From Macrolepiota albuminosa (taxonomy: Eukaryota > Basidiomycota > Agaricomycetes > Agaricales > Agaricaceae), in contig JAMWFC010000067.1 in assembly GCA_027475525.1 (NCBI GenBank), positions 372,001 to 436,000 of the forward strand: DNA of 64,000 bases, read 5' to 3'. A program made the position numbers and the translations under genes. A model generated the notes under the pieces. It did not search any database, was not told where the DNA came from, and worked only from the letters and a program-made list of their open reading frames with translations. Of the stretch, positions 5,040-23,700 are shown piece by piece (positions within the stretch are counted from its first letter, which is position 1; each line of letters opens with the position of its first letter).

Positions 5040-6421
5040 GCAATTATGCCTTCAGTTGTGGAGGCTCAAGATGTCTGCTGCAGGATGGATAAGGGAAATC
5101 ACTTCTTTAAGCTGCTGATCTAGCGACTAGATTTCTGGGCCAGTGAGAGGCCATATGCATGCATTACAAAGCCATGCACAACTGCCTTCATTGAGTAGTT
5201 GATGATGCCTTGGGAGTAACCTTATAGTTACCAGATGTAGTGAAGCTGTATAAGGCAGACAGTAGGCATATTTGAGCCTATTCTGATACATCTAAGTTCA
5301 GTGACTTGAAGGACTGGGCAATAGATATGTGCACTCATCTTGCTATGTGTCTATACAGTGGAGACCATATGGAATGAGAACAAATTTTTGTTCTGCCCAA
5401 ATTCTTGGCCAGAAAAGCCATGAGTTGGTTTTGACGAGCAGTATTGCACATCAACTAGGTTTAGTATGACTGGACATTTAAGGGAGTCCTCATAGAACTG
5501 TATAATTAATTTGTACACCTCTTGATGTTGCAGGACACAAGACAGGACTTCCAGTCCATGAAGTACACTGAGAAGCTAGGTGTGCAAGAGTTCTATGATA
5601 CCCTTAATGACCATGCCCAGAACATAGCAGTGTACCTGGATGGGTACACTATGCTCAAAATGTTCTTGGATAGTATTCCAGTGGACCTGCACTGCTATCT
5701 GATTTGTGAGAATGGGCTGTCCCCAGAGGTCAACAATGTTGAGGAGTTTGTGGCATATGCTATAAGGTACAAGCAGTCTCTTAAGACTGCTAACCACTGC
5801 AAGTATTGTAATAGCTATAAGAGAGGAAGCAGAAAATCTACGCCTGTCATGACATCTTTGTAAGATCAGCACATAGGGACCTTTCTGGCCAAAAGGCTGA
5901 CATGGACCACAATTGCAACACATAGTTTGTGGTATGTTGAGCCCATGACTAGAGTAGGCTTCAGATAGAGAATGTCTTAAACCCAGGCCAGAATTCAAGC
6001 CAGCCAATCTATCTGATCAGACAGGAACATACTTTACATGTAGCCAACCAGGCTACTATGCTACTAGCTGTCCTACGAGGGCAGGAGCCCAGAAAAAGGG
6101 GTATACACTCCAAGCCCACATATGTGCTGTACATACTGCAGCAGCAAGTGGAAGTGACAGAGATATCTCTGCCAAGTCTGAGGCTGAGCATTTCATGGAC
6201 AACCAGGAGCCTTCAGAAGAGGCATTAGACACAGAGCCCAAGAGTGTGATTGTGAAGGGGAAGGAGTATGTCACAGTAGACATATTTGATGACACTTTTG
6301 AAAATGAGTACTATAGTCGTGACAGTGACTCTGAGTGCCTGGCAGCAGAGATAGACTGGCTATCTTTGAATGACCACAACAAGAATAATGTCATACAAAT
6401 GAAGAAAGTTACTCTTCATTG
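5040..6421 (+). pseudogene. Decayed Ty3/gypsy gag with remnant zinc knuckle
   Basis: The frames carry a retrotransposon gag like the one at 49.9-50.4 kb. Shared blocks include KFSDL (about 5,290), LGVQEFYDTL (about 5,580) and ICENGLSPEVNNVEEFVA (about 5,705-5,755). A degraded CCHC knuckle (TCSQPGYYATSCP, about 6,039) is followed by an acidic tail at 6,195-6,422. In-frame stops and frameshifts break it throughout, and the knuckle has lost a cysteine and its histidine. Gag forms the particle that packages element RNA. This copy cannot be functional. Confidence 0.8.
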
Positions 6422-6469
6422 AGTAGAGGGCACATTACTTACTCAGTGGAGGCTAATATTAAATATCAG

Positions 6470-9400
6470 AATATAAAAGAAATCTGACAATTTGATGTTA
6501 TAAACTCGTTTAGATATAATCTTATTTTAGAGACATCTTGGTTCTTTCAACACCAAGTAATGGTTGGGCTGAATCCTGCATGTATCATAGTTGAAAGTGA
6601 TGTATCTCTGCTGATGAAGGGGTCTGGGGTTCAAAGACTGGCCTCCTGAACAATGAAGGTTTATAATGACCAAATAGAAGAAATAAGGAAAAATTTAGTG
6701 GATTATGCTAAACTCATATGCCAATGAGCAGCAAACACACTGTTATCACCCCTTCACATAATTAATCATGAGATTCTACTAATAAATAAATACAAAGTTT
6801 ATACTTAGCATCCATCCTGATGCCCCCAAGCTTTGCTCTCCCAGTAGACTAAGAAACAGAATTTGTACTTAAAGGCAGGATGCTGGGCTATCACATCAGA
6901 GAGAAGCTTGGCTCCTATGCTTTGCATCTCAAAGCTGGGAAATTTACCACAGCTACACATTATAGTGGACCTCAGAGAGTGAAATGCAAATACTTGGAAG
7001 ATGAGCTCTTCGCTGCCAGATATAAAAAGAATTCTCTGAAGAGCTTTGCAAGCCAAATATCAATCTTTGATCAATAGGCAAGATACATATGAGCAAATTT
7101 GTATAGTCTCAGAACACATCAGACATACCACAGTAAACACTTCCAGTGAGACCATAGTGAGCTATGTTGTACAACAAGGTAATTGCAACACTCCCACGAC
7201 CTATTAGGCCTTGATAAACTACTTGTTTTTGAAATATATAGGATGCTGAATGAACATATATCTAGACAATATAGTTATATACTCAGATAGCCTTGATAAA
7301 CACATAGAGCATGTAAAGATCATAATAGACATACTTAAATAGAAGAAATTGTATCTCAGTGAGTCTAAGATAAAATTACTAGCCAATAGTATAAAAATTC
7401 TTGGCTGAATTGTCAACAACCATGAAATCCAGATAGATCCTGACAAGGTGGACACATTAGTACAATGGAAAACTCCCACCAATCATGACTTACTGCAGGC
7501 CTTTTGGGAAGCAGCAGGATATTTTGCTGATGACATTGACTATATAAGGGCATCTATAAAAATACTCCACACCCTAATCAGTGATAGCATGCTGTTCAGG
7601 TGTACCAGCACCCACCAGCATGCTTTTTGATGAAGTTAAAATCTTGGCACAAAAATGTAAGAAATACTACTAAATTTCCCTATAATACAATAAAGAGGCA
7701 GAGCCCATCAATGTAGTCACTGACAGTTGTGTCACTGGTATTGGCAGGATCATCAGCCAAGGTGAAGACTAGAAAAATGCAAAAGTAGCAATTCAGCCAA
7801 ACTGAGCCCTACTCAGCAGAACTACTCTACTTATGAAGTGAAATTACTGGCAAGGATAGAAACAATGATGAGATATAGGGATATTCTGCAAGGGGTAAAG
7901 TTTTGCTGGTTCACAGATTATCCAGAAGTTATTCATCTTCTAAAGCAACAAGACTTATCTGCCAGACAGATCCATTGAGTTGAGAAATTATCAATGTTTG
8001 ACTTCAAAATACATTATGTGCTAGAAACAGATAATATACATTCAGATGCCCAATCCCAAATCTATTCCAACAAACTGCCCAGTACCATTTGCTCCCATAT
8101 AAAATACATGAAATATGATAGATTCATTGGTGATGTATTGGTAAAACAAGGAATGATGGCTCTCATTGTGACAGGAACAAAGAAAGCTAGCCAGAATTGA
8201 GAGAACTTAGAAGTAAACATTGTAACCTAAAGCATGACATAAAAAATGGATGACCAGCACCAGAAATTAAATAGAAGACCAATAGAAGGCAAGAGTAGAA
8301 TTAGAGACAAGACAGAAGAAAGTAAACACAATCATAGCCAAAAGGAAAAGAATGAGACAAAGTAAATAATGGATGTAATGAAGTAACTGCTCTGTCCAGG
8401 AATCAATATAATTAAAATTATTAAAGGAAAATATTAAGAGAATCAAACTTTAAGGAAAATATTTGAACAATCAGATGCTTATAAGAACTTCAAAGTTGAC
8501 AAAGAATAAGGACTGATTTATTTGAAGAAGAGAAAGAACAAAATCATATGTATTCTGGATGGAACAATAGACAGCCAAAGCATTCAAACTGTTATTATCA
8601 ATGATGCACACTCAATACTTGTGCACTTGGGATACAAGAAAACACATGACTATCTAAGAAATTACACCTGGTAGAAATTGATGGCTCATAATATATAAGT
8701 GTTCTGCAATACCTGTATAACTTGTAAAAGAGCCAAACCCAATAATTAAAAACTGCACAAATTATTTAACCCACTTGACATATTGTCTATGCCCTGGAAA
8801 TCTATTAGAATTGATTTCATTGGTTTGCTGCCAGAATTTAAAAACCAAAACGCAAAATATGATTTGATTACTGTCATCATAGATTTACACTTTACAATGG
8901 TGCATCTAGTTTCTAGCTGCTGTAATTACAAAGCTCAGGAAATTACTGAATTAGTATTTGTGGAAGTTTATAAACATCACAGCTTACCTTGAGCCATTAT
9001 AAGTGACAGAGATAAATAGTTTACAAGCAAATTTTGGAAGAGACTGAATGAACTAATAGATACAAAGTGAAAAATAGTTAGCACCTAACCATCCTTAAAT
9101 AGATGGAGCAATAGAGCAGGCTAATAGAACAATAGGTCAGATGCTTAGATCCTGTATAGAAAAAGACTGGACAGACTAGGTACAGAAATTGCCTGTGATC
9201 AAGTTCACCATCATGATCTGAGAGCACTAGTTATGCACCATTCTTTCTAAATTCTTGAAAAATGCCAAGATCCTTTATTTGGGATAGTAATAAACCCTCA
9301 AAGAGAGAATACACCAGCATAAGAAAATTTGCCAAAAACCTCAAATTTGCTATTATGGCAGCCATGATCATATCATAAGAGCAAGAATAAAACAAGTACA

Positions 9401-10200
9401 CAATGCCAATAGAAAATGCAGGGAAGCAAAATTTGTAGAAGGGGATTATATTTATATCTCAACTAAGAATATATCCATAAACAAAGAGCTGGCTCATAAG
9501 CTCTATCCAAAGTACATTGGTCTCTATAGAATTATCAAAAAATTAAAAAATAAATTTTTTCAAATCAAGTTACCACATACTTTAATACAGTGAGAAATAC
9601 ATGATGTTTTCCATGCATTCTTACTAAGAATCAAAAACCAGATTTTTGAACTTGGCAACAAAGAAAAGGAATGGGCTATGGACAAAGTATTGACTCATGA
9701 TGGGAACAAAAGAGACACCATATTTGAAATAATATGGAAAACAGAAAATAAGTCATAGTTACTATATCACCAAGTCAGCGAATTAAGAGCCCTCAAAGAA
9801 TACTTAGAGGCCTATAACATTAAAAATATTCCAGACCTTGGAAAGGATTCAGGCTCCACTCTGAGAGAAAATCTGCAGATATATTTGGAAAAAGTCAACA
9901 TAAGTGGCACTGAAACTTTTTTTTCTCATCAATTTGGAAGCCCTACAATATTACTCAAATGCAGCACTGCCAGTGCCAACTTTGACTAAATAGATGAAGA
10001 CCCCAAAACACAAGCTACCAACATTTCAGCACCCAAACTAGTGACAGGAGCAGAGATTGAAGTTCAGGAAGTCAGGTCAATTTCCCAAGAACTCTATGCA
10101 AATGGACAGTGTTTTGATGCACTGGGGCCTTTTGCTGAGTGGGCTGCAGACAATACAAATCTTTTCCAACATTATGAAGGGAATTTCTATTATATATGAG
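6470..10200 (+). pseudogene. Decayed Ty3/gypsy pol: protease, RT, RNase H, integrase
   Basis: Domains appear in order across several frames. Protease C-terminal end: LETSWFFQHQVMVGLNP, about 6,525. Reverse transcriptase: LDNIVIYSDSLDKHIEHVK, 7,265-7,325, a damaged form of the YLDDIVIYSD catalytic block, followed by the thumb at 7,440-7,610. RNase H: EPINVVTDSCVTGIG, about 7,700. Integrase core: WKSIRIDFIGLLPEF at 8,793 with a YKHHSLP block. After about 9,770 comes a tail resembling the C-terminal region of agaricomycete gypsy polyproteins. The order protease-RT-RNase H-integrase defines Ty3/gypsy. Stops and frameshifts are everywhere and the first RT Asp pair reads DN. No matching 3' LTR is visible. 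Confidence 0.85.
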
Positions 10201-10872
10201 CTGACAACCAGCTGATAGTAGAAGTGCCAGGCTATATAATGAAAACATATCTCATATTCAACTTGATGGTATGCTTAAAAGAGAACTTCATTGCATTTGA
10301 TACCATGATTATGTCACAAATTCATGCAAGGATTGTTGGCATTTTATCCTTTCCATGCTGGCTGCTAAAACTTACTTACAATTTTTACTTACAATTTTAC
10401 TTGACTCAATTCTCTATTTGTTCTCTACAAATACTATACTTACTATAAATACAAGAACTAATTACTGAAATAATAGTGTTGATTCTAGTTAATCTTGACT
10501 AGTCTGAACTCTAAATCTTCATGTCACACTACTGTTTAGGCCTGGCATTACACATATATTATTGTTGACTTATCAAGGACTGCTGTTTCTTAAGTGCATA
10601 CCAACATCTACTATTTTTCTTGCATTCTATATTCAAATTGTTGTCAGGAAACAACTCAAAATTCAGCCTTTTGAATATAACAAAATAAACAGTGATGGTA
10701 AAATTTGTTATGCATGCATTGGTGTTGTTGCTGAGCACATTGTATATATCTTTTTAGTTTTAACTTATCAAGAAAAGTTATATGAAAAAACATGATAACT
10801 GTCTTTGTAGAATGACAAGTATTGTTAATATCACTAATAATGCACTAATTCTACATTAATAAAATTGGAAAA
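10201..10872. other. AT-rich spacer between gypsy relic and GTPase gene
   Basis: The open frames at 10,224-10,448 and 10,562-10,795 are hydrophobic and AT-driven, without a recognisable domain. The stretch may hold the degraded 3' end of the gypsy element and the terminator of the GTPase gene on the minus strand. I see nothing firm. Confidence 0.4.
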
Positions 10873-12923
10873 TCAGCTTTTTTGTCCAGAGTTAGTTTTT
10901 TTGTCCTCCAAAGTTAATTGTTCATAAATCAAGTCCTCAATACTTTTCTTGGCCTTAATATTAAAAAAAGCCTCATGTGAAGAAGGAGCACTATTCCGAA
11001 TTAGTTGATGAATCTGCCCAGACCTGTTTTCTTTGAAGTTTTCAAAAGTTGCTGAAATAATTTTGAAGTCAAGAGGCCTCTGCCACTCTGTTTGGAGTGC
11101 AGTAACAAAGAGTTGATGAAGAAAAAGTGTAAAGTCCACAATATAAGCTTCCAAAAACAAAGCAGTTTCTGGGCTAGAAAAACAATGTTAGCAAATTTCA
11201 TTTTGCCAATATAATACTTTACAAACACTTCTTGATATTTGTTATAAAGAAACTCAATGGCTGCCACTGCAATACCAACTGCACCAAGTGCTCCTGCTAG
11301 AGGAGGTAAGAGTGGCCCAAAAATTGCAGCCAAAGCAGCAACAAAAGGCAAATGTTTTAACACAGACCTATTTATTATCTGATTAAAGTTTTGTTCATCA
11401 CATTTATTTCTATCAAGGCTTACAATTCAGAATGATATTGAGGTACAAATGATTCTATCAACTTGAGCATCTGAGCATGGAATTCCTTTCCAATAAGAAG
11501 CTTAACAAAAGTGTCAAGTAAATAAATCCATTCCTCAAAAGCACGAAGCTTACCTCTTGTGGATCTCTAAAATTCCAGACCTTAACAATATCCAAGTGTA
11601 TACGCCATACACAATCTTTTAAAACATGTCCTTTGAACACTGTACTCTTTGCCATATTCTTCCAATACTCTACAAAAGTTTCTGAGGGTCCTGCAGAAAA
11701 CAATCAGATGAAAAGAACATACTTTTAAGTCCCTCTCTAACGGAAGCAGGATGAGCATATGAATTGAAAGACGGTAGGAACGCATACTCAATTGAAGTTT
11801 GCACTTTTTGTTTAGGATCAATGCGTTGTGCTACAGACCATGGAACAAGTGTCTCCTTTGCACGCAGACATTTTCTAGTCACATCCGTCAGTTCTTCAAG
11901 TGTATGCAAGAATCCTAAGGCAAGGAAAACATCAGCTTTATGCGGCCAAAAAAGGAAAGATTCTCAAGACCAAGAAATTTCCGGTGAGTGGAGACACCGA
12001 CATAGCTCAGTGGTGGTTTGGAGTGAAGCCAGAGATTACGTTTAGATCTGGCGAGGTCAATGTGTTGCTGAAACACCTCAGTCGACATCCTGAGGGAATT
12101 GCGAGCTTCTTCTGCAACTTGGTTTCGATCAATGCTGTTATTAACATGTTCGCCGCGGGCCACCTTTGCATAGAATTCATTGAAGAGAAGGTCGAATTTC
12201 GTAAAAACCACTATCACAGGAATATTTCCTGGAACGTTTATATGATATTAGATTGAGTACAAGAATGGAATATAAACTTACGACGGAGAGCGAACTTCAG
12301 GAGGTCTTCATCTGCGGTCTGCATCAGGCGCGACCCAGAACGTGGTGTCTCTATACAGAGCCTACCAGAAGGGTCATCTATGAGCCGTTATGTATCAGAA
12401 TTGCAACATCAATTACCACACTGCATGAAGCCGTTCCCCAATTGGAAGGCTCTTCTTAGACCTCTGACGGACAAAATTTTCAACAAACCCCCATTGGTCA
12501 CTTGATCCTGGTTCGAAACCCTTGCTATCATGAAACGCAAAGTGCGGGTTGTCATCTGATGTGTACTCGCGATTGATGTCGGCTGTCCCATGCCCATCAG
12601 CGATATCAAGGTCCTAATTGCAGCTGGTCATAAGGATGGTTGAATTGAACTAGGGTTGATGCGAGCTCACCTCTTGGCTGACGTTGAAGATGCTAGCAAT
12701 CAGGGAGGATTTTCCCACTCCTGTCTGGAAAAGCAATACGATCAATTTCTCGCTGCCTATGCGCGTTGGTGAAGGTTCACGTTTCCTACTACCAAAATCC
12801 GAAATCTACACAAAGGATTGATACGAATTTAGCTTATCAAGGATCAGATAATACTACGTACCTAGGACAGAAGGAGAGGCTTTCTTCAACAGTCGAAGGA
12901 AGAGAGACGGGAGGAGGGTCCAT
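10873..12923 (-). CDS. P-loop GTPase with C-terminal membrane segment (paralogue 1)
   Basis: This is a G-domain protein of the expanded agaricomycete family whose core resembles septin/AIG1-type GTPases. The ATG at 12,923-12,921 opens exon 1 (to 12,862). Exons 12,805-12,781 and 12,724-12,671 join to give the P-loop GNTGVGKS in FRILVVGNTGVGKSS. Later exons give the G3 region (FAFHDSKGFEPGS) and G4 (PVIVVFTKFD). After the G domain comes an exon of only 14 nt (11,736-11,723), then an amphipathic part. A glycine/alanine-rich hydrophobic segment follows (VAALAAIFGPLLPPLAGALG, about 11,350-11,290), probably a membrane anchor, and then a charged tail ending at 10,873. Splice sites can be placed for nearly all exons. 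The reading across 11,920-12,000 is the least certain. It probably binds and hydrolyses GTP at a membrane; its biological role is unknown. It is divergently oriented to the paralogue at 14,402. Confidence 0.8.
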
Positions 12924-13754
12924 GATGGCGAAAACAGGAGTGTACGTGGACCAAGAACGTACTCATCAGAACTTGGTGGCAGAGCGTGGGAGCTTTCTCA
13001 ATGGAGGTCAAATTATCCGATATCATCATCACATGGGTATCGTAGTCCACGAGACGTAAACTAGTAAGGAGCTCTTTTCCCGCTGCGCATCAACAGCTCA
13101 GAGCCCGCCATTCCTTTGTCTGTTAGCGCCCATACGCCAACAGTGACAACACCATCGTCATGTATTCGTGATTTCCCCTCGCGACATTTCCCTCCCCGTT
13201 CTTTGTCACAAAGGTTCCCTTTGCTCGCGCTCTGGATTCATGTCATACCATCGGTGTAATTCAACCTTCTTTGTTACATTGAAATATACAGTAAGATATT
13301 GGTAAGATATCACATCATAGTTTCTTGTATTTAGCCAGTGCGTTTTCCCCGAATAAAAATTCGAGCGAGCATCAAGTTGGCCGGCCCGATTCTGCTAAAA
13401 ATTCAGTATGTGGAGCTTCTCAAACAATCTAATCTGTGCTTAGTCTCGAGAAAAATGGGTATCTATTGGGGCGGGCATCAATTGATTAAAAAGTCATCCC
13501 TCCCACCTATCTCTAGAAATCTGAAGCCTCGCCTATGACAGCCGATCAACGATGATTCCCAAGTATTAGATGACGGGTTGGGTCCCCGTAAGTGGTTCTC
13601 ATTGTTGGAATTACCGGTAAGGGTCACCACACATACTAGATGACCGGCCACCCATCAACCCTTCACAATATCACACTTGCTGCTTTGTCTGGCCACCTTG
13701 GTCAAAGAGCGCATTGTCCGCCATACACATATATAAACGAGCCTGTTCAGTCAA

Positions 13755-13787
13755 CACCCTCAGTCGATTGTAAAGAGACTGAGGGTG
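13755..13787. promoter_or_regulatory. Interrupted palindrome copy 1 (11-bp arms, 11-nt spacer)
   Basis: The left arm CACCCTCAGTC (13,755-13,765) and right arm GACTGAGGGTG (13,777-13,787) are perfect inverted repeats around an 11-nt spacer. The form resembles a dimeric transcription-factor site, for example fungal Zn2Cys6 factors that bind inverted half-sites at a fixed spacing. It could also fold into an RNA hairpin in a leader. Confidence 0.65.
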
Positions 13788-13836
13788 AGTAGTTACATTT
13801 CTTTCATAACGTTACTTATAACTTACTGTACATTTA

Positions 13837-13928
13837 GACTGACTTACACGTCTGATCTTAGGTACAGTATAACGAATACAGTCGATTACAAAGAGACTGA
13901 GGACTGACTTACACGTCTGATCTTAGGT
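13837..13928. repeat. 27-bp direct repeat in the GTPase promoter region
   Basis: Positions 13,837-13,863 and 13,902-13,928 are identical over 27 bp (GACTGACTTACACGTCTGAT, then CTTAGGT). The second palindrome copy lies between them, so palindrome plus repeat was probably duplicated as a block. Confidence 0.8.
13879..13902. promoter_or_regulatory. Interrupted palindrome copy 2 (5-bp core arms, 11-nt spacer)
   Basis: CAGTC (13,879-13,883) and GACTG (13,895-13,899) again flank an 11-nt spacer that differs from copy 1 at two bases. The right arm extends to GACTGAGG; the left arm has diverged outside the core. Confidence 0.55.
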
Positions 13929-14027
13929 GTATACGGCTTGAATTCTAACACTCATAGATTGATATAACTCACTGGCCTAGAACAAATAACGGTATTCCAT
14001 ATACACGCCTATACTGAATACGTACGC

Positions 14028-14054
14028 CCTCAGTCAAATATACTTGGACTGAGG
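14028..14054. promoter_or_regulatory. Interrupted palindrome copy 3 (8-bp arms, 11-nt spacer)
   Basis: CCTCAGTC (14,028-14,035) and GACTGAGG (14,047-14,054) enclose an 11-nt spacer whose sequence is unrelated to copies 1 and 2. Conservation of arms and spacing but not of spacer sequence argues for a constrained binding site rather than simple duplication. Confidence 0.65.
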
Positions 14055-14401
14055 TGGAGGGTGATCACTTCCTATGCATATAGACACGTACTCATACTAC
14101 CGTAGACTATAAGTTACCTCGGTATTCCATAGACATCAGGCTTGGATTGTAACACTAAGGGCAGCTAACACAAACCCATAGTGAGCAGATGATTGTGATT
14201 TCGCGCATTCAACAATATATCAAAGTGTCTAATAAGTACTTATCGCGATTTTCTTCTTTTTTCCAGCATTACATCAGATTACTTACAGCCGGACAGATCT
14301 GATCAAATATTCCGCATGGACACTGCATGTGCCCTGTGCCCACAACCTTTCTTGACCACCAAGCACAATACACACAAACCCAAATCCCTCTCTCTCTCAA
14401 C

Positions 14402-17400
14402 ATGTCTGACGTTCAAGCAGCCTCAAAGCTCCGCGAGAAGTACGAACACTTCCGTATCCTCGTGATCGGTCGTGCCAATGCTGGCAAGACCACGCTCTTG
14501 AAGCGCGTTTGCAATACAAAGGAAGATCCTTGCATCTACGATGGAAGGAAAGAAAACTTGGTGCGTTTCTTGATAATTGCTACGGAGATCTCTTATCGTC
14601 CCTTGACCCAATAGTTGGAACCAAATCCTGGGGTAGATGTCTTATTTTGTTTGAGGTCGCTCTCTCACGCTATTCCTAAGCGCGGGATCCACGACATCAA
14701 TCGCCCGTTCGTCTTTCGCAGCAACCCGCAGTACATCTTCCATGATTCTCCTGGGTTTGAGGCAGGTGATGAGAGTCAGCTCAAGAAAGTCCAAGAGTTC
14801 ATCAAGGACCGTGCAAAAGCCAAGGACGTGAATGAACAGTTACATGTCATTTGGTACCTTTGATGGCTAATCCTCCTTTTCTTTTCCTTACTCATGATCC
14901 ATATAGGTTCTGCTTTTCACCTAATAAATCAAGGTTCCTTCTGGATGTGGAGGAGAAATTTTTCAATGAGCAGCGCTGGGGCAATGGTATGTTAGCTGTG
15001 TTTCTTAGAGAGAAATTTTGGTATGAATAAAAGTTTTACAGTTCCTGTCATTGCAGTATTCACCAAGTTCGATGATTTCATTGTTCAGGTGTATGATACC
15101 AATCTGGACTATCAAACAAATCGCAAGAATGCAGAAAAGTCACTAGAAGATCTCCAAATTCCATTATTTCGTTACAAATATCCACCTAGGGCAGGGGTAC
15201 GCTTGGAAGGTATGTCCAATATATTCTGACAATTGACTCGTTGATTTATTCGGACACAGACATGCAAAACGATGATGGAGACCACCAGGAGCAGGTGAAA
15301 GCCCTGATTGATAAAACAACAGAATCTCTCGATGATATTGCTCTTAAAATGTTGTTTGTTTCAGTTCAGCAGGGCAACCTGGAATTATGCATTGAATATG
15401 CAGTTAAATAGTAAGAAGTAACACTATTATTGATGTGAACTAACCCATGATTGCCCAATTTAGTACTAGAGTGTTTGACCAGCAACTTTCCCTGGTATCT
15501 ATCTCTATCTAATGAAAAACATTTTGCTGAGTTTTTCTTAGAAAGAGCTTGTTCAGGATTCTGTATTGTGGTTCCGGCATGCATATGTGAGTTGACCACA
15601 TGGCAAACACAGTGTTAACTTGTCTTTAATATAAGCAGTTTCCTGTAAGTTGTTTTATAATGAAGGTGAGACCTTTGTATTTGTAAATGTCTATTAAAGT
15701 GTAATGTGATACATTTAGAGAACAACGTGTTTAGTATCCTCAAGGATTATGTATGAAGACTGACTTTTCTGCTACAAAATATAGAGCTAACATTGATTAG
15801 GATGTGGGTTGTTTTCTTATTATATATAAACATTCAGTTGATAAAAATTGTGGGACATAGTATGTGCGTCATGCCAAAAATCTGTTTTCTAAGCCAAAAA
15901 AAAATTGGATCATTCTCACAGGAAAAAAAAGTAATTGATCCTTGGATGAGATAGATGAGAAAGCTGAATTATATATTTCTAGGAGGTATGTAAACAAATG
16001 AAATGTTATGAATAATCTAAAATATATTAGGATGTGAGTAATTTTAAGCTATTGAATGAGAACTGCAATTTAAAATTTTGTTCAGGAGGTGATCACTGTT
16101 TTTTTTTTGTTTTAGTGGAGGTTTAAACACTTGATGCTTGAATAACATATGATTAGGAGGTAAATTGTTTTGAAATTGATATTAAATTGAAATTTTGAAA
16201 ATTTTCAGCTGGTATGTGCTTTTTGCTTTGTATTCAAAATTTGCTTATTGATAAGATGATTTTGGTGATATATATAGAGAGTAAGTTTGTCTGCTACAAA
16301 TTCAGACTGAATAAATTTGATGGAATTAATTGAAATACATTAGAAAGTGAGTTGGCTTTATGCTTTTAGAATTGATTATTGGATTAAATAATTTGAATTT
16401 ATTTAGCATGTAAGTTTTGTCAATTGGGGATGTGATAGATAATATGGATAAAATTATAATTAGGGAGTAAGTTTTTTTTATTTTTTATTTTCGATGCAAT
16501 AGATGATGTGTGAGAAATAGGGAGTGAGTATTTTTTAGCTTGCAGTAAAATCAGATGTTTAATGAACTATATAATTTGTGCTAAGCTTGTAAGTTGATTT
16601 ATATTTTTGCTTGTAGAGAAATATTGAAAAGATATTTAGGTTGTGAGTTAAAATTTGTTATTCAACATTCTATGACAAATTGAATTACAATGGTTTAGCA
16701 TGTAAGCTGCTTGTGCTTTTAATATAAATTTAATATTGAATAGCATAATCAACATATATGTCTAGAATGTAAGCTTTTTCAGTTTTTTTATTTGCTATAA
16801 GCTAAAAATATTTTTAAGCTTGTAAGTTAATTTTTAATTGAACTTTGAACAAGATACCTTAAGGCTATTTTTAGCTTGTAAGTCAATTTTTATATGCATT
16901 AATTCAGGATTGTCAATCTAATAGCTTTATTTAATTATAAACTTAGCTTGTAAGCAGTGTCACTATGCTTATATTGCAAAATCAACATCTGAATTACATG
17001 ATTTTATTCTATGACCAGAGAGTAAGTTTGTTTATTTTTCAGAAATAGGTATTTAAAATTTGTAATTAGGAAGTTGGTTTTTTTTCCCTAGAGTTTTATA
17101 ATTTATTAAAACTACTTTAGCAAGTAAGTTTTTTTAAAAAAAATGCAAAAATAAATACTAAAAATATGACAAATATTAGAATGTAAGTTGTTTATATATT
17201 TATATATATATATATTTAATTATTTTAATTTGACCTGATTATTATTTAGGGGGCAAGTATTATGTTTATATGATGTTGAACTTTAATAACAGCATATTGT
17301 TGTAATATCTAGCTTGTAAGTACTTTTTTAAAAAAGCATATATTTAAAACTTACATTTTTTGTTTAGAATGTAAGCTGCTTTGAAATTTATATACAAGTT

Positions 17401-19449
17401 TGCACATTTTAATATCTGATTTTATTTAGGAAGTAAGTTGCTTTTTATTTATATTATGAAAATTAATGAACTAATGATGTAACAACTTATTCAGCTTGTA
17501 AGAACTTTGGTTTTCTGCATAACTTATTATTAAAAATATAATTTTATAAATATGCTTCTAGACAGTAAGTTTTTTTGTATTTTATACTAAATCAAAAAAC
17601 TAATAACATAATATGCAATTCTTTATAGCTTGTGAGTTTTGTGCTCTGAATAAACAGTCAGCTAATTGATACATTTTATAAAATATTTAGGAAGTAAGTT
17701 ATTCTCTAACTACAATTGAAAAAATTAAATGATTCAACTTATTGATTTGAATTATATGCTTAGAAAGTATAAATTTTCATTCTAACATAAAATGTTATAT
17801 TTAACAATGTAACTTTTATATCATAGAAAGTAAGTTCTGCTAAATTAAAGATATTGACAATATGATCTGACTGCATGCTTAGCTTGTAAGCTACTTTGTC
17901 ACTTTGCATACAATAAATATTTGATCTGGAATTTTCTTTAGGCAGTAAGTTGGTTTTATATTATAGCAGCATTGGAAATTTATTAATATACTCAAAAATA
18001 TATTTAGAGAGTAAGTTGTTTTTTCATTTATTTCTAAATCAAATTTATTTATTAATATGATTTGAATATTGCTGTAGAAAGTAAATATTTATTTTTTCAG
18101 TTTTCTAATAGCAGAATCTAACTGTTTGCTTAGGGAGTAAGTCTAGCTTATACTAGTTAATATCTAACTGCATGATATAATTCAAAAATATATCTAGCTT
18201 GTGAGTTTTTTTCTTGCTAAAATTTCAAACTTAAATGTCTAATAGAGTATTTAGCTTGTAAGCATTTAATTTTTTTATTGGATATTTCATGCCATAATTT
18301 CAAATATACTTAGAAAGTGAGTTTTTCTAACTTTAACATTACAAATAGTAAAACTTGCAATATTTTTAGAGGGTATTTTTTTTCCTATTTAAAAAGTCAA
18401 TAATACAATTTAAACAAATATCCAGGGAGTAAGTAGTTTTTGCTTTTTTATAAAAAGTGCAAACTAAATAGCTAATAACATTTCAAACACTTTAGCTTGT
18501 AAGTTGATTTTTTCCACTGTATAAAATTGTATATTTAACTTAACTTTTAGAGAGTAAGTTGTTTTTCTCTTTGTTACAAAATTGAATAACTAAAAACATA
18601 TTTTGGAACCTTTTTTTAGTATGCAAGTTATTTTTCTGAATATTTGACAAAAAAATCTAATTATCTACTTTAAAACAATTTTAGCGTGTAAGTTGCTATT
18701 TTTTACTTTCATAAAATAAGATATTAAACAAAGTTTTATGATTTAGTATGTAAAGCACTTTTTATATTTTGCACAGATTTATATCTGACTACATCAATTT
18801 TGATATATATCAGTTTGTAAGTAGTTGTTTGCATTTTTTGATTTTATTTCAATTGCTAATATAGAAAATTTATCTAGTATGTATGTTAATTCTTGCTAAT
18901 TAGAGTGCACTTTGAATTTTTAATTGACATGAAATCACAGTATATCAATGAAATAACAAAAGTTATGGAGGCCAAAATGGAGTCACAAAGTGTTGGTCTT
19001 GTTGATTTTATAGGTTTTTTTTTTCAATTGTTGTTTTTTTCTATGTATATTGACTTATTTTTTTTTCTTATATATAATTTAGCCCTTATTCTATGTTTAG
19101 AAAAATCATTCTGGCTAAAATCACCTATTACTCTGTTCATTGAAGATTTTGCCCAAGCTCATCAGTTGTACATTACAACTGGTACAAAAAAAAGAGTAGA
19201 AAGCAATGTTGAACAGCTTGGTGTTCCATCTGGAAGAAAAGAATTTCGAGTTGCTCTTATCAACATTTTGTTGGAGCATCGCATGTGTATGTAATATTTA
19301 ATTGCTTTTGCTTTTACAACAACCACTTTATTTTAGCAGATCAAAGTGCATCTAATTCTTCCCAGTTGCTACGAGGTCGAAGCTTCGGACAAAAAGTTCG
19401 AGGAGTTCTCCGCCGGGCAAGCTTTTCAAGTTTTTCCAAAAAAAGATAA
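14402..19449 (+). CDS. P-loop GTPase (paralogue 2) containing a trinucleotide micro-exon array
   Basis: ATG at 14,402 after a CT-rich leader. Exons I can place are 14,402-14,560; 14,615-14,632; 14,681-14,853; 14,907-14,986; 15,042-15,209; 15,260-15,410; 15,464-15,494; 15,542-15,586; 15,639-15,644 (6 nt); the micro-exons of 15,801-18,880; 18,941-19,286; 19,337-19,449. The G domain shows G1 GRANAGKTT, G3 HDSPGFEAGDE and G4 VFTKFD. After the G domain, LFVSVQQGNLELCIEYAVK is the usual family block. The exon at 18,941 opens YINEITKVMEAK and includes a hydrophobic stretch over 19,010-19,085, either a membrane helix or an unrecognised intron. The last exon gives a basic Ser/Arg/Lys-rich C-terminus and TAA at 19,447. 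The phase is 0 where the micro-exons start, so 3-nt exons keep the frame. The join at 15,645-15,800 is unresolved (a 6-nt exon GATTAT at 15,745-15,750 would keep the frame). The intron at 14,633-14,680 is inferred from paralogues. The role is unknown. Confidence 0.75.
15801..18880 (+). other. Array of 51 micro-exon units (50 of 3 nt, one of 9 nt)
   Basis: Each unit reads 3' splice site, NNN, 5' splice site. Exon starts: 15801, 15861, 15922 (9 nt), 15983, 16031, 16086, 16157, 16209, 16278, 16344, 16407, 16464, 16521, 16586, 16640, 16699, 16766, 16819, 16875, 16947, 17019, 17070, 17121, 17180, 17250, 17313, 17368, 17430, 17495, 17562, 17629, 17691, 17764, 17827, 17883, 17942, 18008, 18078, 18134, 18198, 18255, 18314, 18370, 18426, 18496, 18551, 18620, 18685, 18747, 18814, 18878. 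Spacing is 48-73 nt, mean about 61.5, without a fixed period. Triplets: CTT 11, AAA 5, AGA 4, GGA 4, TAT 4, GAA 3, GAG 3, AAT 3, GAT 2, CAT 2, nine others once. Most donors are GTAAGT, GTGAGT or GTAAGC; 17,253 and 18,623 are GCAAGT. Branch-like CTAAC, CTGAC or CTAAT lies before many acceptors. Weak donors are at 16,089, 17,073, 17,767 and 18,373. Confidence 0.8.
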
Positions 19450-20798
19450 TACTCATAAGAAGTCCATATTCATTAGATGACAAGATAATTATGATGTGCT
19501 GCCACCCACTATCCATGATTGTTGTATATAAACCATGAAACAAGTCCAAATAGCTCTATTATGTCTTTCGAGGTCAAGCAATATTTCAAAGCATATAGAA
19601 GGCTATAAACCATGAAACAAGTCCAAATAGCTCTATTATGTCTTTCGAGGTCAAGCAATATTTCAAAGCATATAGAAGGCAAAAAGCTATCTTTAGTTGA
19701 AACTGAGAATATTCCTTGATTTATGAACGATGGCTTTACTTTGAGTAGACGATGTAATATTAGAGCAGTGTATTCAAATTATAGGTGACTGAAAGACATC
19801 AGTCTATATTGAGAGGAATATCAGATGGACAAAACGGCAACACACTCTGTTTCTGGGTAGCGGAAAACTAGGCAACAACTACGAAGTACCTGATAGAAAG
19901 GAAGAACAAGCTAGAAAGTACTCCACCGGCAGGTATAAATGTCCGTAGTCAAGGTTCTGTCAGATAGTGCTATATTGTCCGTAAAGGGTAGGTAGTAATC
20001 AGACTAGGCGGGATTACAGTGACAAATGCAAAATTAAATATTTATATGGCTTTTAGAAGGTATTATCAACACATGAAATTATATTAGAGATTTGAACTAG
20101 AACTTTCTTTTTCGAAACAACTAAGGCCAAAAGAAAAGATGGAAAATACAGATAACCGATTGATGAGATTTTAATTTGTGTGCTATAGGGAAAGTGCTTC
20201 GTCTTGCAATTGTGTAAATCAAAGGATAACTCTCGCCTGCTTAACCGACTACTATGTATGCTAAAGAGCGACAGGACTAGACTCAATCATCGAACTTCTT
20301 TGATAATTTGGAACACAACTAATACAACATACAAAGCCCAAGAATATCTCAAAGTATTTGAGCTATATATGTATACAAGCAGACTATCAAGCTTGCAAAC
20401 ACATGATAAGAGATAAACATAGGTAAGCTAATGAAGGGATAATGCAAGAGTGTGGGCAGTGATGTTAGACAATGTAAATAAAAGCTACGTAGCTAAAGCA
20501 CAACCTTAGTCTGGACAATGAACCTGTTACCGAACCTTAGGTTCCGTCCTCTAAGCAGTCAGGGATATATCTATGACATACACGCAAGAGGCGACAATAA
20601 TTTCTTTTCTTCACTTTCTCGATTGTTGATACATTCGGGTTTCTGCAACTTTATACAAGTATAACTACTCTTCATCCAACACAACCATGTGACTTTCAGT
20701 AGATGCCTAATTGATCAATAGTGATCCAGCTATCGCGTTTACTTCTGAGAAAAAGATAATGGCAGATCAATAAGCAGTCACGGATGGAATTTTCTTCA
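19450..20798. other. Intergenic stretch between GTPase and alpha-mannosidase
   Basis: The two genes converge here, so it should hold both 3' ends. Apart from the exact 77-bp tandem duplication at 19,527-19,680 I see no gene, RNA or transposon. The open frames are short and lack motifs. Confidence 0.5.
19527..19680. repeat. Exact 77-bp tandem duplication, probable assembly artefact (1 of 5)
   Basis: 19,527-19,603 is repeated without a mismatch at 19,604-19,680. The offset is 77 bp, identical to the four other exact duplications in this window. Confidence 0.9.
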
Positions 20799-23700
20799 TC
20801 AACGAACATACTCTGACTGTTCGGCAAGGACTGGCGTAGACTTGAGGACAAGTTTAACAGTCTTGACCTCAAACCCACGGAAATCCAACATCAAGATTCC
20901 TGACGTCGCGGAATCCTCACCAGGGAAAATGCTCAATTGATCGCCTTCATCCTCAAGAAGGTTCGTGAGGTACGCTTTCGCGATGGACAGGTGGCCGCCG
21001 ATTCTGAGTTTCGCCTTGGCATGGCCTCCAAATGCCTCGTAGAGACGGAGTACGATAGTCGTCATACCCGTGCTCTTTGAGAAATCATCGTCTTCCCCGC
21101 GTTTGACGGTTTCAAGGAAGACGTTCCGCGCTCCCTCGACTGTGAAAGGAGAATGAAGACGTGCCATCGTGGCATGGCCGTCCTGAGGGACATGCCTCAC
21201 TGTTGTTTAAGGATATTTATCAAGCACAATGGACACGACAGAAATAGAGCTTGTGACTGACCTCGCAGGGGGGAATTGTACAAGTAACCTGCCATAGGGA
21301 CATCTGATTCCAAGAAATGTCCCTCATGAGGCATGACCGCCCACGAGAACTTGTGTTCGCCTAATACCAGATTTAGTCATTCAATACAAATAGGAAACAA
21401 GTAACATGTCTGAACCTTGGTCCTGTTCAGCGTCAGGAGCCGTCGCGGATCGCAAAAGGGATATACGAAGAACATTCCCGAGACAAGAAAATCCATATTT
21501 CGATTCTGAGAGGATTGCAACGCCATATCCGAACTCGCTCAGGTCCGCATACTATTTGCCATGTTTGTGAGAAGGATACACCGAACGAAGCAAAGATCCT
21601 GGACTTACTTTATGTCCACACACTTCAAACTAATGATCAAACATCGTCAGTCGCAGTACAAGAATTATCAAAATCCACGACGGAAAACGCAAAAACCTTG
21701 GCAATGTCCCAAGTGGTATTCTTATGTGTTGGACGTTGAACGTGTCCAAACTGCGTTTCATACGTCGCATTGTCGCCATGAATATCCAAGGGCAACTCGA
21801 CTGAATCATAAACCATCAGTGTAGAGTACTCCTTGGATGAACAACAATAAACCACCATACATTTGAGGAATTCGTGTCGCTGATGCCAGTCTACGACGGC
21901 ATCAAAGTGGAATAACGATCGCGAGTTCTCCTTGACAGTAGCTGCGCCCCACCCCAGGAGATTCAGGATCCAAAAGAAAGACAGACAGAACAGCCGAAAC
22001 GTCTTCACCTGTTATAGCATCCAAAGAAATCTTGGGAAGAAAACCGAGTCAGTCGAAAAAAAGCCTATAGCTGCGCATCCAAATGGATGAGAGGGGGCGA
22101 CGTACCGTAACCTCAATCGTACTCTTATCATACTTCGTCGCCGCTCTCACCGAGCCGCGAAGCGGGCCTTGCGCGACAACCGACACGTTTGTGAATTCCA
22201 GTTGTTTCATGGTCTCCAAATGATGAATCTCAACATCTAATAAAAAGCCCAATCGCATCAGAAAAACGTGTTCCGGCTCATCATCTTCAAGGAGGATGGT
22301 TCACCCCAAGCATCCCAGTAATTCGGTTGATCGTCAAAGATGACCAATCCACCCGTCGAGCCGGGGCTAATCAGCTCACGCCTGTAAATGAAGGAAGGGG
22401 AGGGTGCAGATTTCATGTGAGTCTCTGCAATCCCTTGAAGCTTAACTGCATACCCACCCCAACTTTACATCGAACAAACTAGTAATCCGACCCTTTGAAA
22501 TCGTAAGTTGCACCGACGAATTTCGCAAAACGAAATTGTCCGTCCCGTTCGTGAACACTATAATGATACACAAATGACACTCAACAACCAAACACAAGGA
22601 AACGCGTGTGCGTGGGAAGGGGAAAGGGTGGGGGAGAGGAAGGACATTCGGAACATACCTGAGACAGGGAGAAGCTGCGCATGCAAACCGGTCGCAGGCG
22701 TACAGACCGTCCCAACACTCCCTGGCGAATTCACCACGGCATACCCAACCATTCCGTCACTCGATGTCTGCAGGACCTGCGAGACGAGGCTCGGGTGTGC
22801 GCCGACGAGCGGGACTTGTACGATATCCGACCTGCGGAAGAAGGTCGTGTTGAACCCAACGATCTTGCCGGTAGGGTCGAGGGCTTTGGCGTCGGTGTCC
22901 AAAGTGAGTGCGACGGACCCGGGGAAGAGGACGCGCAAGGCTTCATCAAGTAAGGCTTCGCCGTCCATGCGGACCTCGGCGTAGAGTTTCTCGGCGTCTT
23001 CGTAGACCATACCGCTGGACGAGAGAAGTGAGCACTAGACTGTGCAGGAGGGGAGGTTCATACATGGCTGATCCCGGGAGGACTAGAGGGTGCGGAGTGA
23101 GCGGGCTATCACCAAGCTAAGCAACGACGCACCATCGTGGACTGGGGAAAGAGACAATCAGCCTTTGCTCAGTCAAGAACAGTTGGTATACATACACTGA
23201 TTCAACAAAACCTTTTCCCACGATTCATCGATCGCTTCTTTGGGATATAGATAATTACTGTTATACAGCCTATACAGTGACGCAAGCGTCGCTACATGCT
23301 GAGTGGGGAGGGGATGGGAATCAGCCAGTCAGGCGCTGTCAATCCAAGTACAACAAACCTCGACATCACGCAGCAAAATCTCCGAATGCCTATTCCCTTT
23401 CTTGATAGACCCTACCCAACGTCTGGTGTCATCCGACCAACCAACAAGCTCCAAACATCAAAAAAACGAACCATGCGATGTATATGTCCCGCGATGGAAC
23501 TAAACCAAAAAAACACACACACCAAACCGCATCAGCACCACGAGGAAAAGACATGACACTCTCACTAACCTCGAGGTACAACTCCCCATGCCTAAACCAC
23601 ACAGAAACAAAAGCAAAAGGCACATCGCGGGGTACACGTCAGCACACCAAACACCCTAGGATTAGAGGGGGGACACACCAACTCGGCAGGGTCCTTCCGG

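Follow-up and report, generated by a model that had tools for sequence, protein, structure and literature searches.

A predicted array of one-codon exons within a GTPase gene of the mushroom Macrolepiota albuminosa

Can a stretch of protein be assembled codon by codon, nearly every residue being carried by an exon of its own? The question is raised by a GTPase gene of Macrolepiota albuminosa located in a 64,000-nt stretch of DNA (assembly GCA_027475525.1, contig JAMWFC010000067.1, positions 372,001 to 436,000 of the forward strand; hereafter the window), in which 51 exon-like units (one of 9 nt, all others of 3 nt) follow one another in a ladder at 15801-18880 on the plus strand. An earlier note on this DNA proposed either a peptide assembled one codon per exon or recursive splice sites that remove a long intron in short steps. 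Here, the window gene was analysed together with its paralogues in the genome (100.1 Mb, 129 contigs; the window lies on C13, and C14, C60, C68, C89 and C115 are further contigs) and with homologous proteins. The first of the two proposals is supported, since a ladder is present in every paralogue found, its start matches homologues residue by residue and the frame is kept throughout. We therefore consider it probable (at roughly 0.83, judged from sequence) that the array is serially spliced into a 53-residue segment built by micro-exons, 50 of 51 of which would carry a single codon.

Parsing the tract by script reproduced the unit count, the single 9-nt unit (located at 15922-15930) and the intron range given by the earlier note. 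The 50 ladder introns are 45-70 nt long (median 59) and are all in phase 0, between whole codons. Each of the 51 units stands between an AG and a GT or GC, the acceptors being TTAG in 30 of 51 and the commonest donors GTAAGT (22), GTGAGT (7) and GTAAGC (6), as had been described. Four further AG-NNN-GT matches (16348, 16525, 17946 and 18430) were dropped before the count; each lies 4 nt behind a counted unit and overlaps its donor, and their TGA or TAA trinucleotides come from within GTGAGT and GTAAGT. With a fixed consensus and a 3-nt exon, 47 units were found in the tract, versus a mean of 0.75 and a maximum of 4 in 300 dinucleotide shuffles, none of which contained a chain of two units. Exon lengths from 0 to 12 other than 3 yielded 0-3 units each, with a single unit at length 0. 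No further ladder of at least four units was detected at exon lengths of 0-18 on either strand of the window. The encoded ladder peptide, DYEKKEDEELRKHGGLVHNLLLREQNGLNELTLEKKLARKGLLKRGLRYRYFY, has 53 residues, including 12 Leu and 22 Asp, Glu, Lys or Arg, and lacks Ile, Met, Ser, Pro, Cys and Trp, a recomputed composition that agrees with the one first reported.

Ordinary in-frame exons flank the array, as the earlier note had stated: ten open exons lie upstream (159, 18, 173, 80, 168, 151, 31, 45, 6 and 6 nt, separated by introns that total 562 nt for the first ten) and three open exons downstream (Table 1). The full model comprises 64 exons and 461 residues in a single open frame, and inclusion of all units would make it 159 nt longer than the skipped form, with ...FPDYDYEKKEDEELRKHGG... 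as the predicted joined stretch. The assembled protein exceeds the cut-off of PF01926 (Pfam MMR_HSR1; 28.1 vs 21.9 bits), and the G-domain match starts at residue 18.

Diverged paralogues on C60, C89 and C115 each carry a ladder of their own, with 55, 53 and 45 units, respectively, including one 9-nt exon each and, in C89, one 6-nt unit. A search with the C-terminal domain hit five places (C60, C89, C115 and C13 twice), all of which have a ladder, so the ladder is conserved in relatives, the absence of which the earlier note had named as grounds for rejection. The second C13 place is an identical gene copy 82,377 bases downstream of the window gene; window positions 6000-21999 and C13:378000-393999 are identical over all 16,000 bases compared, which points to a large tandem duplication of recent date or to an artefact of the assembly. 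The four distinct copies share a colinear gene start, with the exon lengths given above except that the fifth is 168 or 171 nt. They also share the start of the array, in which a WF-x-H-x-x exon is followed by exons of 6, 6, 3, 3 (TAT) and 9 nt. The codon at the position of the following GAG in the window is GAG in C115 too, Val in C60 and His in C89. Some overlapping matches in C60 and C89, 4 nt behind counted units, were likewise dropped, as were a C89 match with CTA before GTAAAT, 24 nt ahead of a counted unit, and a C89 ATA unit 119 nt past the last counted one. The lack of stop codons to which the earlier note had pointed holds for the window array and is weak when taken alone (1.57 expected, P(0) = 0.20). 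Pooling the 199 ladder trinucleotides of the four paralogues again gave no stop, versus 4.0 expected (P = 0.018, position-specific composition). The third base of the 3-nt exons in the four arrays is T in 135 cases, A in 53, G in 11 and C in none (n = 199), so that mostly T stands before the donor, where G is the usual base.

Genome-wide scans with the core motifs TTAGNNNGTAAGT and TTAGNNNGTGAGT hit 161 and 136 places, respectively, below the 260 and 179 of reversed-pattern controls; a single motif is therefore uninformative, and only clustering is informative. Among the first 100 of the 161 and of the 136 places, after which C115 falls, clusters were seen only at C13 (twice), C60 and C89; C14 and C68 accounted for two further pairs with a 77-base spacing. 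When the window and C60 arrays were searched for as DNA, only this gene family was matched among the best candidates scored. In C60 (L008, about 2595-2608), just after the first 6-nt exon, an acceptor is directly joined to a donor (TTGTAG and then GTAAGT), possibly a ratchet-like site that C89 lacks.

Homologues were collected with the assembled C60 protein (587, the best 120 being considered) and with residues 150-367 of P0028 (33). These relatives supply the strongest evidence for splicing. Among the matches listed, the closest named proteins are from agarics, including P0002 from Termitomyces, which is 71% identical to the C60 protein across 60% of that protein; in the protein database, residues 230-424 of the window protein matched only P0007 and P0026, both Termitomyces models ending at the array. 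Fourteen proteins from short contigs reach past the WFxH motif (P0004, P0015, P0016, P0028, P0029, P0037, P0051 and P0121-P0127). The contigs of P0004 (425 aa, 1498 bp), P0037 (424 aa, 1350 bp) and P0051 (403 aa, 1335 bp) have no room for the introns, so that these proteins represent homologous sequence without introns: at most 220 nt in P0004 and 75 nt in P0037 are left for non-coding sequence, as against the 562 nt of the window gene. The contigs that carry P0028 and P0121-P0126, which are open reading frames, measure 1041-1554 bp. In 12 of the 14 proteins, the eighth residue after the His of WFxH is Tyr, which is the position of the isolated TAT exon of the four paralogues. It is followed by a three-residue block (GKT, EKT, DKT, EHT, DRT, GKS or GDT) at the position of the genomic 9-nt exon, and then, in 11 of the 14, by Glu at the position of the GAG exon of the window and C115. 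The ladder start thus reads HAY-FP-DY-D-Y-EKK-E in the window and HSY-YG-NY-K-Y-EIT-E in C115, and for example HSY-YN-SY-D-Y-EKT-E in homologues, with D-Y-EKT-E in P0121 and E-Y-DKT-E in P0124. P0124 also has about 19 extra residues (VHIIVIPDQNCYAELKLLK) at a family intron position, resembling a retained in-frame intron.

Past the Tyr-block-Glu stretch the homologues are hypervariable. The distance from WFxH to the C-terminal C..SFW motif is 43-72 residues in all ten short-contig proteins that span the region, and in the four paralogues it is predicted to be 30-33 residues without the array and 80-90 with it. As 43-72 exceeds 30-33, the relatives include such a segment, shorter than full inclusion would give here. 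P0123 and P0124, identical at 167 of 206 aligned residues, differ by eight residues between the anchors (63 vs 55), and the gene model P0001 from Phlegmacium has 60 residues there and a D-Y-YNT-E block.

Apparent read-throughs provide another view of the splice sites, since a GTRAGT donor left unspliced in phase 0 would translate as Val-Ser (VS). Three of the 14 proteins have VS at the end of a predicted micro-exon, namely P0016 (YDY followed by VSNFVSDTERET), P0127 (SYDYEKTEDG followed by VSCSLLFLQNWMTDEAT) and P0029 (HDYGDTQ followed by VSWFPLL...). The Termitomyces model P0007 (HAYFP, then VSLFSKSQR) and the Lactarius models P0005, P0006, P0014 and P0021 (HSYF[DEG], then VS) depart from the family sequence as soon as the first 6-nt exon ends; P0003, also from Lactarius, has HSHFDVYV and no VS. 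In P0131, a model on an NCBI contig, ...QH is followed by VSCSLPFVKLADKATWTCIQ, Q and VSCSLCF..., giving two VS at a distance of 63 nt, the second with a single codon in front of it, an arrangement that would correspond to two ladder units.

How the arrays evolve is indicated by their introns, compared after removal of the first 6 and last 8 bases. The mutual identity of these interiors is 0.577 in the window (0.564 when shuffled) and 0.597 in C115 (0.578), near the shuffled values; both arrays are therefore near saturated with change. Nevertheless, all 51 acceptor/donor pairs of the window are kept. The earlier statement that the tract is not a satellite holds for this diverged copy, in which Tandem Repeats Finder detected nothing, but it fails for C60 and C89, the arrays of which are tandem repeats of about 64 bp. 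Within them, repeats of higher order measure 118-243 bp in C60 and 124-308 bp in C89, some being at least 85% alike, and a three-unit block occurs three times in C89 (CCT-ATT-GTT, CTT-ATT-GGT and CTT-ATT-GCT). This structure suggests that arrays likely grow by duplication of an intron+codon unit. Between close pairs of units (interior identity of at least 0.85; pairs not independent), codon bases differ at 38/96 positions in C60 (16 pairs) and 21/72 in C89 (12 pairs), and intron bases at 84/728 and 53/544, respectively. Codons therefore vary about three times faster than their carrier introns, a suggestion of diversifying selection on the ladder codons, to be read with the non-independence of the pairs in mind. 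Unit-by-unit orthology of introns between C60 and C89 was rejected, as best matches are scattered and identity is 0.71 within arrays vs 0.72 along the alignment; codon positions 1, 2 and 3, identical at 18, 30 and 33 of 51 positions, are therefore unreadable as a substitution rate.

In the protein, the G domain and the helices that follow it precede the encoded segment, and a C-terminal helical bundle comes after it; the segment is hypervariable in sequence and length. The C60 and C89 peptides end in ILGAAMIIIPLAFPLLLVVVLPFYIFFIK and FLITLPVLFTPIVLLIGLIAFIRANYK; when residue order was shuffled 10000 times, their maximal 19-residue hydropathy (2.73 and 2.62) was attained 152 and 47 times, respectively, and on hydropathy the late array segment of both is predicted to form a transmembrane helix. 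The peptides of the window and C115 are polar. An AlphaFold2 model of P0004 (13 sequences; mean predicted local distance difference test score, pLDDT, 72.5) predicts most of the G domain and the C-terminal bundle well, and the array segment (residues 294-320) has pLDDT below 50, which fits a variable connector. The array is thus likely to provide an evolvable spacer or membrane anchor of the GTPase. Foldseek with this model listed only general GTPases (EHD, septin, EngA/EngB, IRG and others), matches too weak to name a subfamily by structure (best listed template modelling score by query length, 0.38), and Pfam gave no match for P0028.

Several observations weigh against one-codon assembly and set its bounds. 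We infer that the short contigs derive from transcripts, a step on which the comparison with homologues depends. The register is imperfect: Tyr lies one residue later in P0004 and is replaced by Phe in P0051, and within the conserved block only Tyr of C60 and C89 matches the homologues well. Matches to homologues are limited to the conserved start of the series (two micro-exons of 6 nt, two of 3 nt, the 9-nt exon and the next Glu); the other 47 of the 51 units are hypervariable, and we infer their inclusion from segment length and frame. The micro-exon origin of the segments in short-contig relatives depends on the VS read-throughs, and two gene models, P0060 and P0031, have only 28 and 14 residues between the anchors, which leaves no room for a ladder and reflects either gene-finder skips or ladder-free genes. 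Not every unit is regular: one C89 unit (L010, about 7141-7150, minus strand) has AG-AAA with its donor lost (AAAGCTGCATTG) and a 135-nt gap, skipping of which would cost one residue and leave the frame intact, and C115 has two irregular steps and a weak unit (AAT before GTGTTT) that was left out of the count. The statistical signals are also uneven. Stop avoidance is modest, weak alone and perhaps partly explained by local duplication, which may also contribute to the modest hydrophobic clustering in C60 and C89; the hydropathy maxima of the window and C115 carry no signal, being reached by 2729 and 9073 of 10000 shuffles. Branch-like motifs, which the earlier note saw in many introns, are not above chance in the window (YTRAY in 32/50 introns vs 30.7 expected) or in C115 (20/42 vs 26.4), enrichment being confined to C60 (46/54 vs 33.0) and C89 (42/51 vs 31.5).

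These points bear on three other explanations. Were the units ratchet sites through which a 3-kb intron is removed stepwise, the trinucleotides would be absent from the mRNA; whole-array skipping preserves the frame just as inclusion does, the P0060 model joins HSY almost directly to the C-terminal part, and the relatives' segments are shorter than full inclusion would give. Ratchet sites, however, need no constant 3-nt spacer, whereas the tract has 47 units of length 3 and one of length 0. The 199 trinucleotides are free of stops, the residues that such sites would skip (x-Y-xxT-E) are present in intron-less homologues, and all ten spanning short-contig proteins are longer than the skipped form, P0051 by only about 10 residues. 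Recursive splicing, the second reading offered by the earlier note, is thus disfavoured and appears improbable. A compromise would be partial or stochastic inclusion, with only the conserved first micro-exons constitutive and the rest randomly or mostly skipped to give mixed linker lengths. Any combination of skips is frame-safe, the relatives' 43-72 residues lie between the skipped and full forms (shorter arrays or partial skipping could both produce them), and P0016, P0127 and P0029 appear partly unspliced. Against this, all 51 window units keep their splice signals, fitting the use of all, and random skipping would break the late contiguous hydrophobic stretch of C60 and C89; we regard this explanation, too, as unlikely. 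Least probable is a decayed tandem repeat in a pseudogene, that is, a satellite unit of about 64 bp with chance splice-like motifs. The repeats still recognisable in C60 and C89 and the donor-less C89 unit agree with it, yet the window interiors have reached background with every acceptor/donor pair intact, four paralogues share ten open, colinear upstream exons, the window C-terminal exons are open, and homologues without introns exist.

If one-codon assembly is correct, intron definition would serve to recognise each 45-70-nt intron, the cues being a strong donor (mostly GTAAGT or GTGAGT) and a TAG or CAG acceptor. Neighbouring introns would be removed serially, since splice factors cannot occupy both ends of a 3-nt exon simultaneously. 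The array would grow or shrink by tandem duplication of the intron+codon unit, and residues would be gained or lost at each event with the reading frame preserved. A bolder and quite tentative extension is that the array acts as a diversity generator, an open-ended intron+codon repeat with which the spliceosome might assemble a hypervariable segment codon by codon. The host GTPase, a member of a large, fast-evolving mushroom family, could then gain, lose or skip units frame-safely, and length and content might differ from paralogue to paralogue, from species to species and possibly among the transcripts of a single gene, in the manner of a nonself-recognition or effector-guarding GTPase.

Table 1 Features of the ladder-bearing GTPase gene (window coordinates; exons and array units are predicted)
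Feature	Position	Strand	Remark
Exon 1, ATG, P-loop GRANAGKTT	14402..14560	+	PF01926 match of assembled protein
Exon 2, 18 nt	14615..14632	+	Equal length in C60, C89, C115
Exon 3, 173 nt, HDSPGFEAG	14681..14853	+	
Exon 4, 80 nt	14907..14986	+	
Exon 5, 168 nt, TKFD motif	15042..15209	+	
Exon 6, 151 nt	15260..15410	+	
Exon 7, 31 nt	15464..15494	+	Equal length in C60, C89, C115
Exon 8, 45 nt, end ...WFRHAY	15542..15586	+	WFxH anchor conserved in homologues
6-nt exon TTTCCT (FP)	15639..15644	+	6 nt in all four paralogues
6-nt exon GATTAT (DY)	15745..15750	+	6 nt in all four paralogues
Micro-exon array, 51 predicted units, 50 introns of 45-70 nt	15801..18880	+	Motif parse and shuffles
3-nt exon TAT (Tyr)	15861..15863	+	All four paralogues; same offset in 12/14 short-contig homologues
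9-nt exon GAAAAAAAA (EKK)	15922..15930	+	Homologous to GATGAAAAA in C60/C89, GAAATAACA in C115
3-nt exon GAG (Glu)	15983..15985	+	Follows 9-nt exon
First post-array exon, 73 nt, YINEITKVMEAKMESQSVGLVDFI	18941..19013	+	
C-terminal domain exon, 204 nt, ALILCLEKSFW...	19083..19286	+	Homologous to paralogues' C-terminal domain
Last exon, predicted, TAA end	19337..19449	+	Putative splice choice

On the minus strand (about 12407-12610), a portion of a further, more distant GTPase-like gene faces the ladder gene in head-to-head orientation; the 64-kb scan found no ladder on that strand. Such a partner also stands beside the ladder genes of C60 (34702-34881, minus strand) and C89 (591873-592052, plus strand). 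Just downstream of the window gene, a 77-bp tandem repeat is present in two perfect copies (19527-19680).

If spliced as predicted, about 50 consecutive splicing events would place about 50 residues, with exons below the footprint of splice-site factors. The gene would then offer a natural setting in which to examine intron definition, the order and fidelity of splicing, and the influence of exon-junction complexes on donors 3 nt past a newly formed junction. A route of coding growth is suggested as well, the frameshift-immune tandem duplication of an intron carrying one codon, which was not found among the matches listed in the open-access PubMed Central (PMC) literature. Ordinary gene finders miss the array. 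Since the Termitomyces (P0007, P0026) and Lactarius (P0005, P0006, P0014, P0021) models stop at it, similar genes may be hidden in other mushroom genomes. Motif scans and homology searches point solely to this gene family among the matches listed, which makes it a clean case.

Known systems resemble the array in part. The micro-exon genes (MEG) of Schistosoma likewise string together many successive very short exons, mostly multiples of three in length, and are hard to annotate automatically; their 10-20 short exons measure 6-81 bp (3-81 bp in the abstract), most of them 15 bp, their introns span 0.1-5 kb, and their products are secreted (PMC10526429). Consecutive symmetric micro-exons are predicted here too (50 of 3 nt, one of 9 nt and two of 6 nt), whereas 15-bp exons and 0.1-5 kb introns are replaced by 50 of 51 one-codon exons and introns of 45-70 nt, and the host is a GTPase. 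The aphid bicycle and megacycle genes are also fast-evolving and rich in micro-exons, with more than 100 in megacycle, which encodes about 2000 residues (PMC9168663). By our estimate, megacycle exons are on average far longer than one codon, and internal bicycle exons are almost all in phase 2, unlike the phase-0 introns of the window array. That a 3-nt exon can enter mRNA is known from Ncam (PMC8042270), and the term 3-bp exon is used in two RPS24 papers (PMC12686416, PMC11162997); the cases described are isolated or few micro-exons, as against an array of 50.

Closer in mechanism are recursive splicing exons (RS-exons), in which donors at or close behind a fresh exon junction are used stepwise, and exon-junction complexes are reported to repress donors near such junctions in animals (PMC6224609), which lends interest to the fungal array. 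As described there, RS-exons rebuild the donor at the junction itself, whereas here exactly 3 nt intervene, the 0-nt exon typical of a recursive site occurs once against 47 length-3 units, and residues of the first units occur in homologous proteins. Fungal introner-like elements are families of similar introns that multiply (PMC4457414); here, similar introns lie head to tail in one gene family with one codon each, and array searches (best candidates) and motif scans (the first 100 places of each) gave no near-identical introns across many unrelated genes. Fungal micro-exons with short introns occur in Phanerochaete P450s and Trichoderma Xlr2, the shortest P450 exon reported being 6 bp, and the excerpts of those two papers make no mention of an array (PMC1184071, PMC11121469). 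An array of one-codon exons was not found in the open-access PMC literature among the matches listed. Because the array lacks a defining feature of each known kind with which it was compared, the gene architecture may be new in kind, the cautious alternative being an extreme micro-exon gene.

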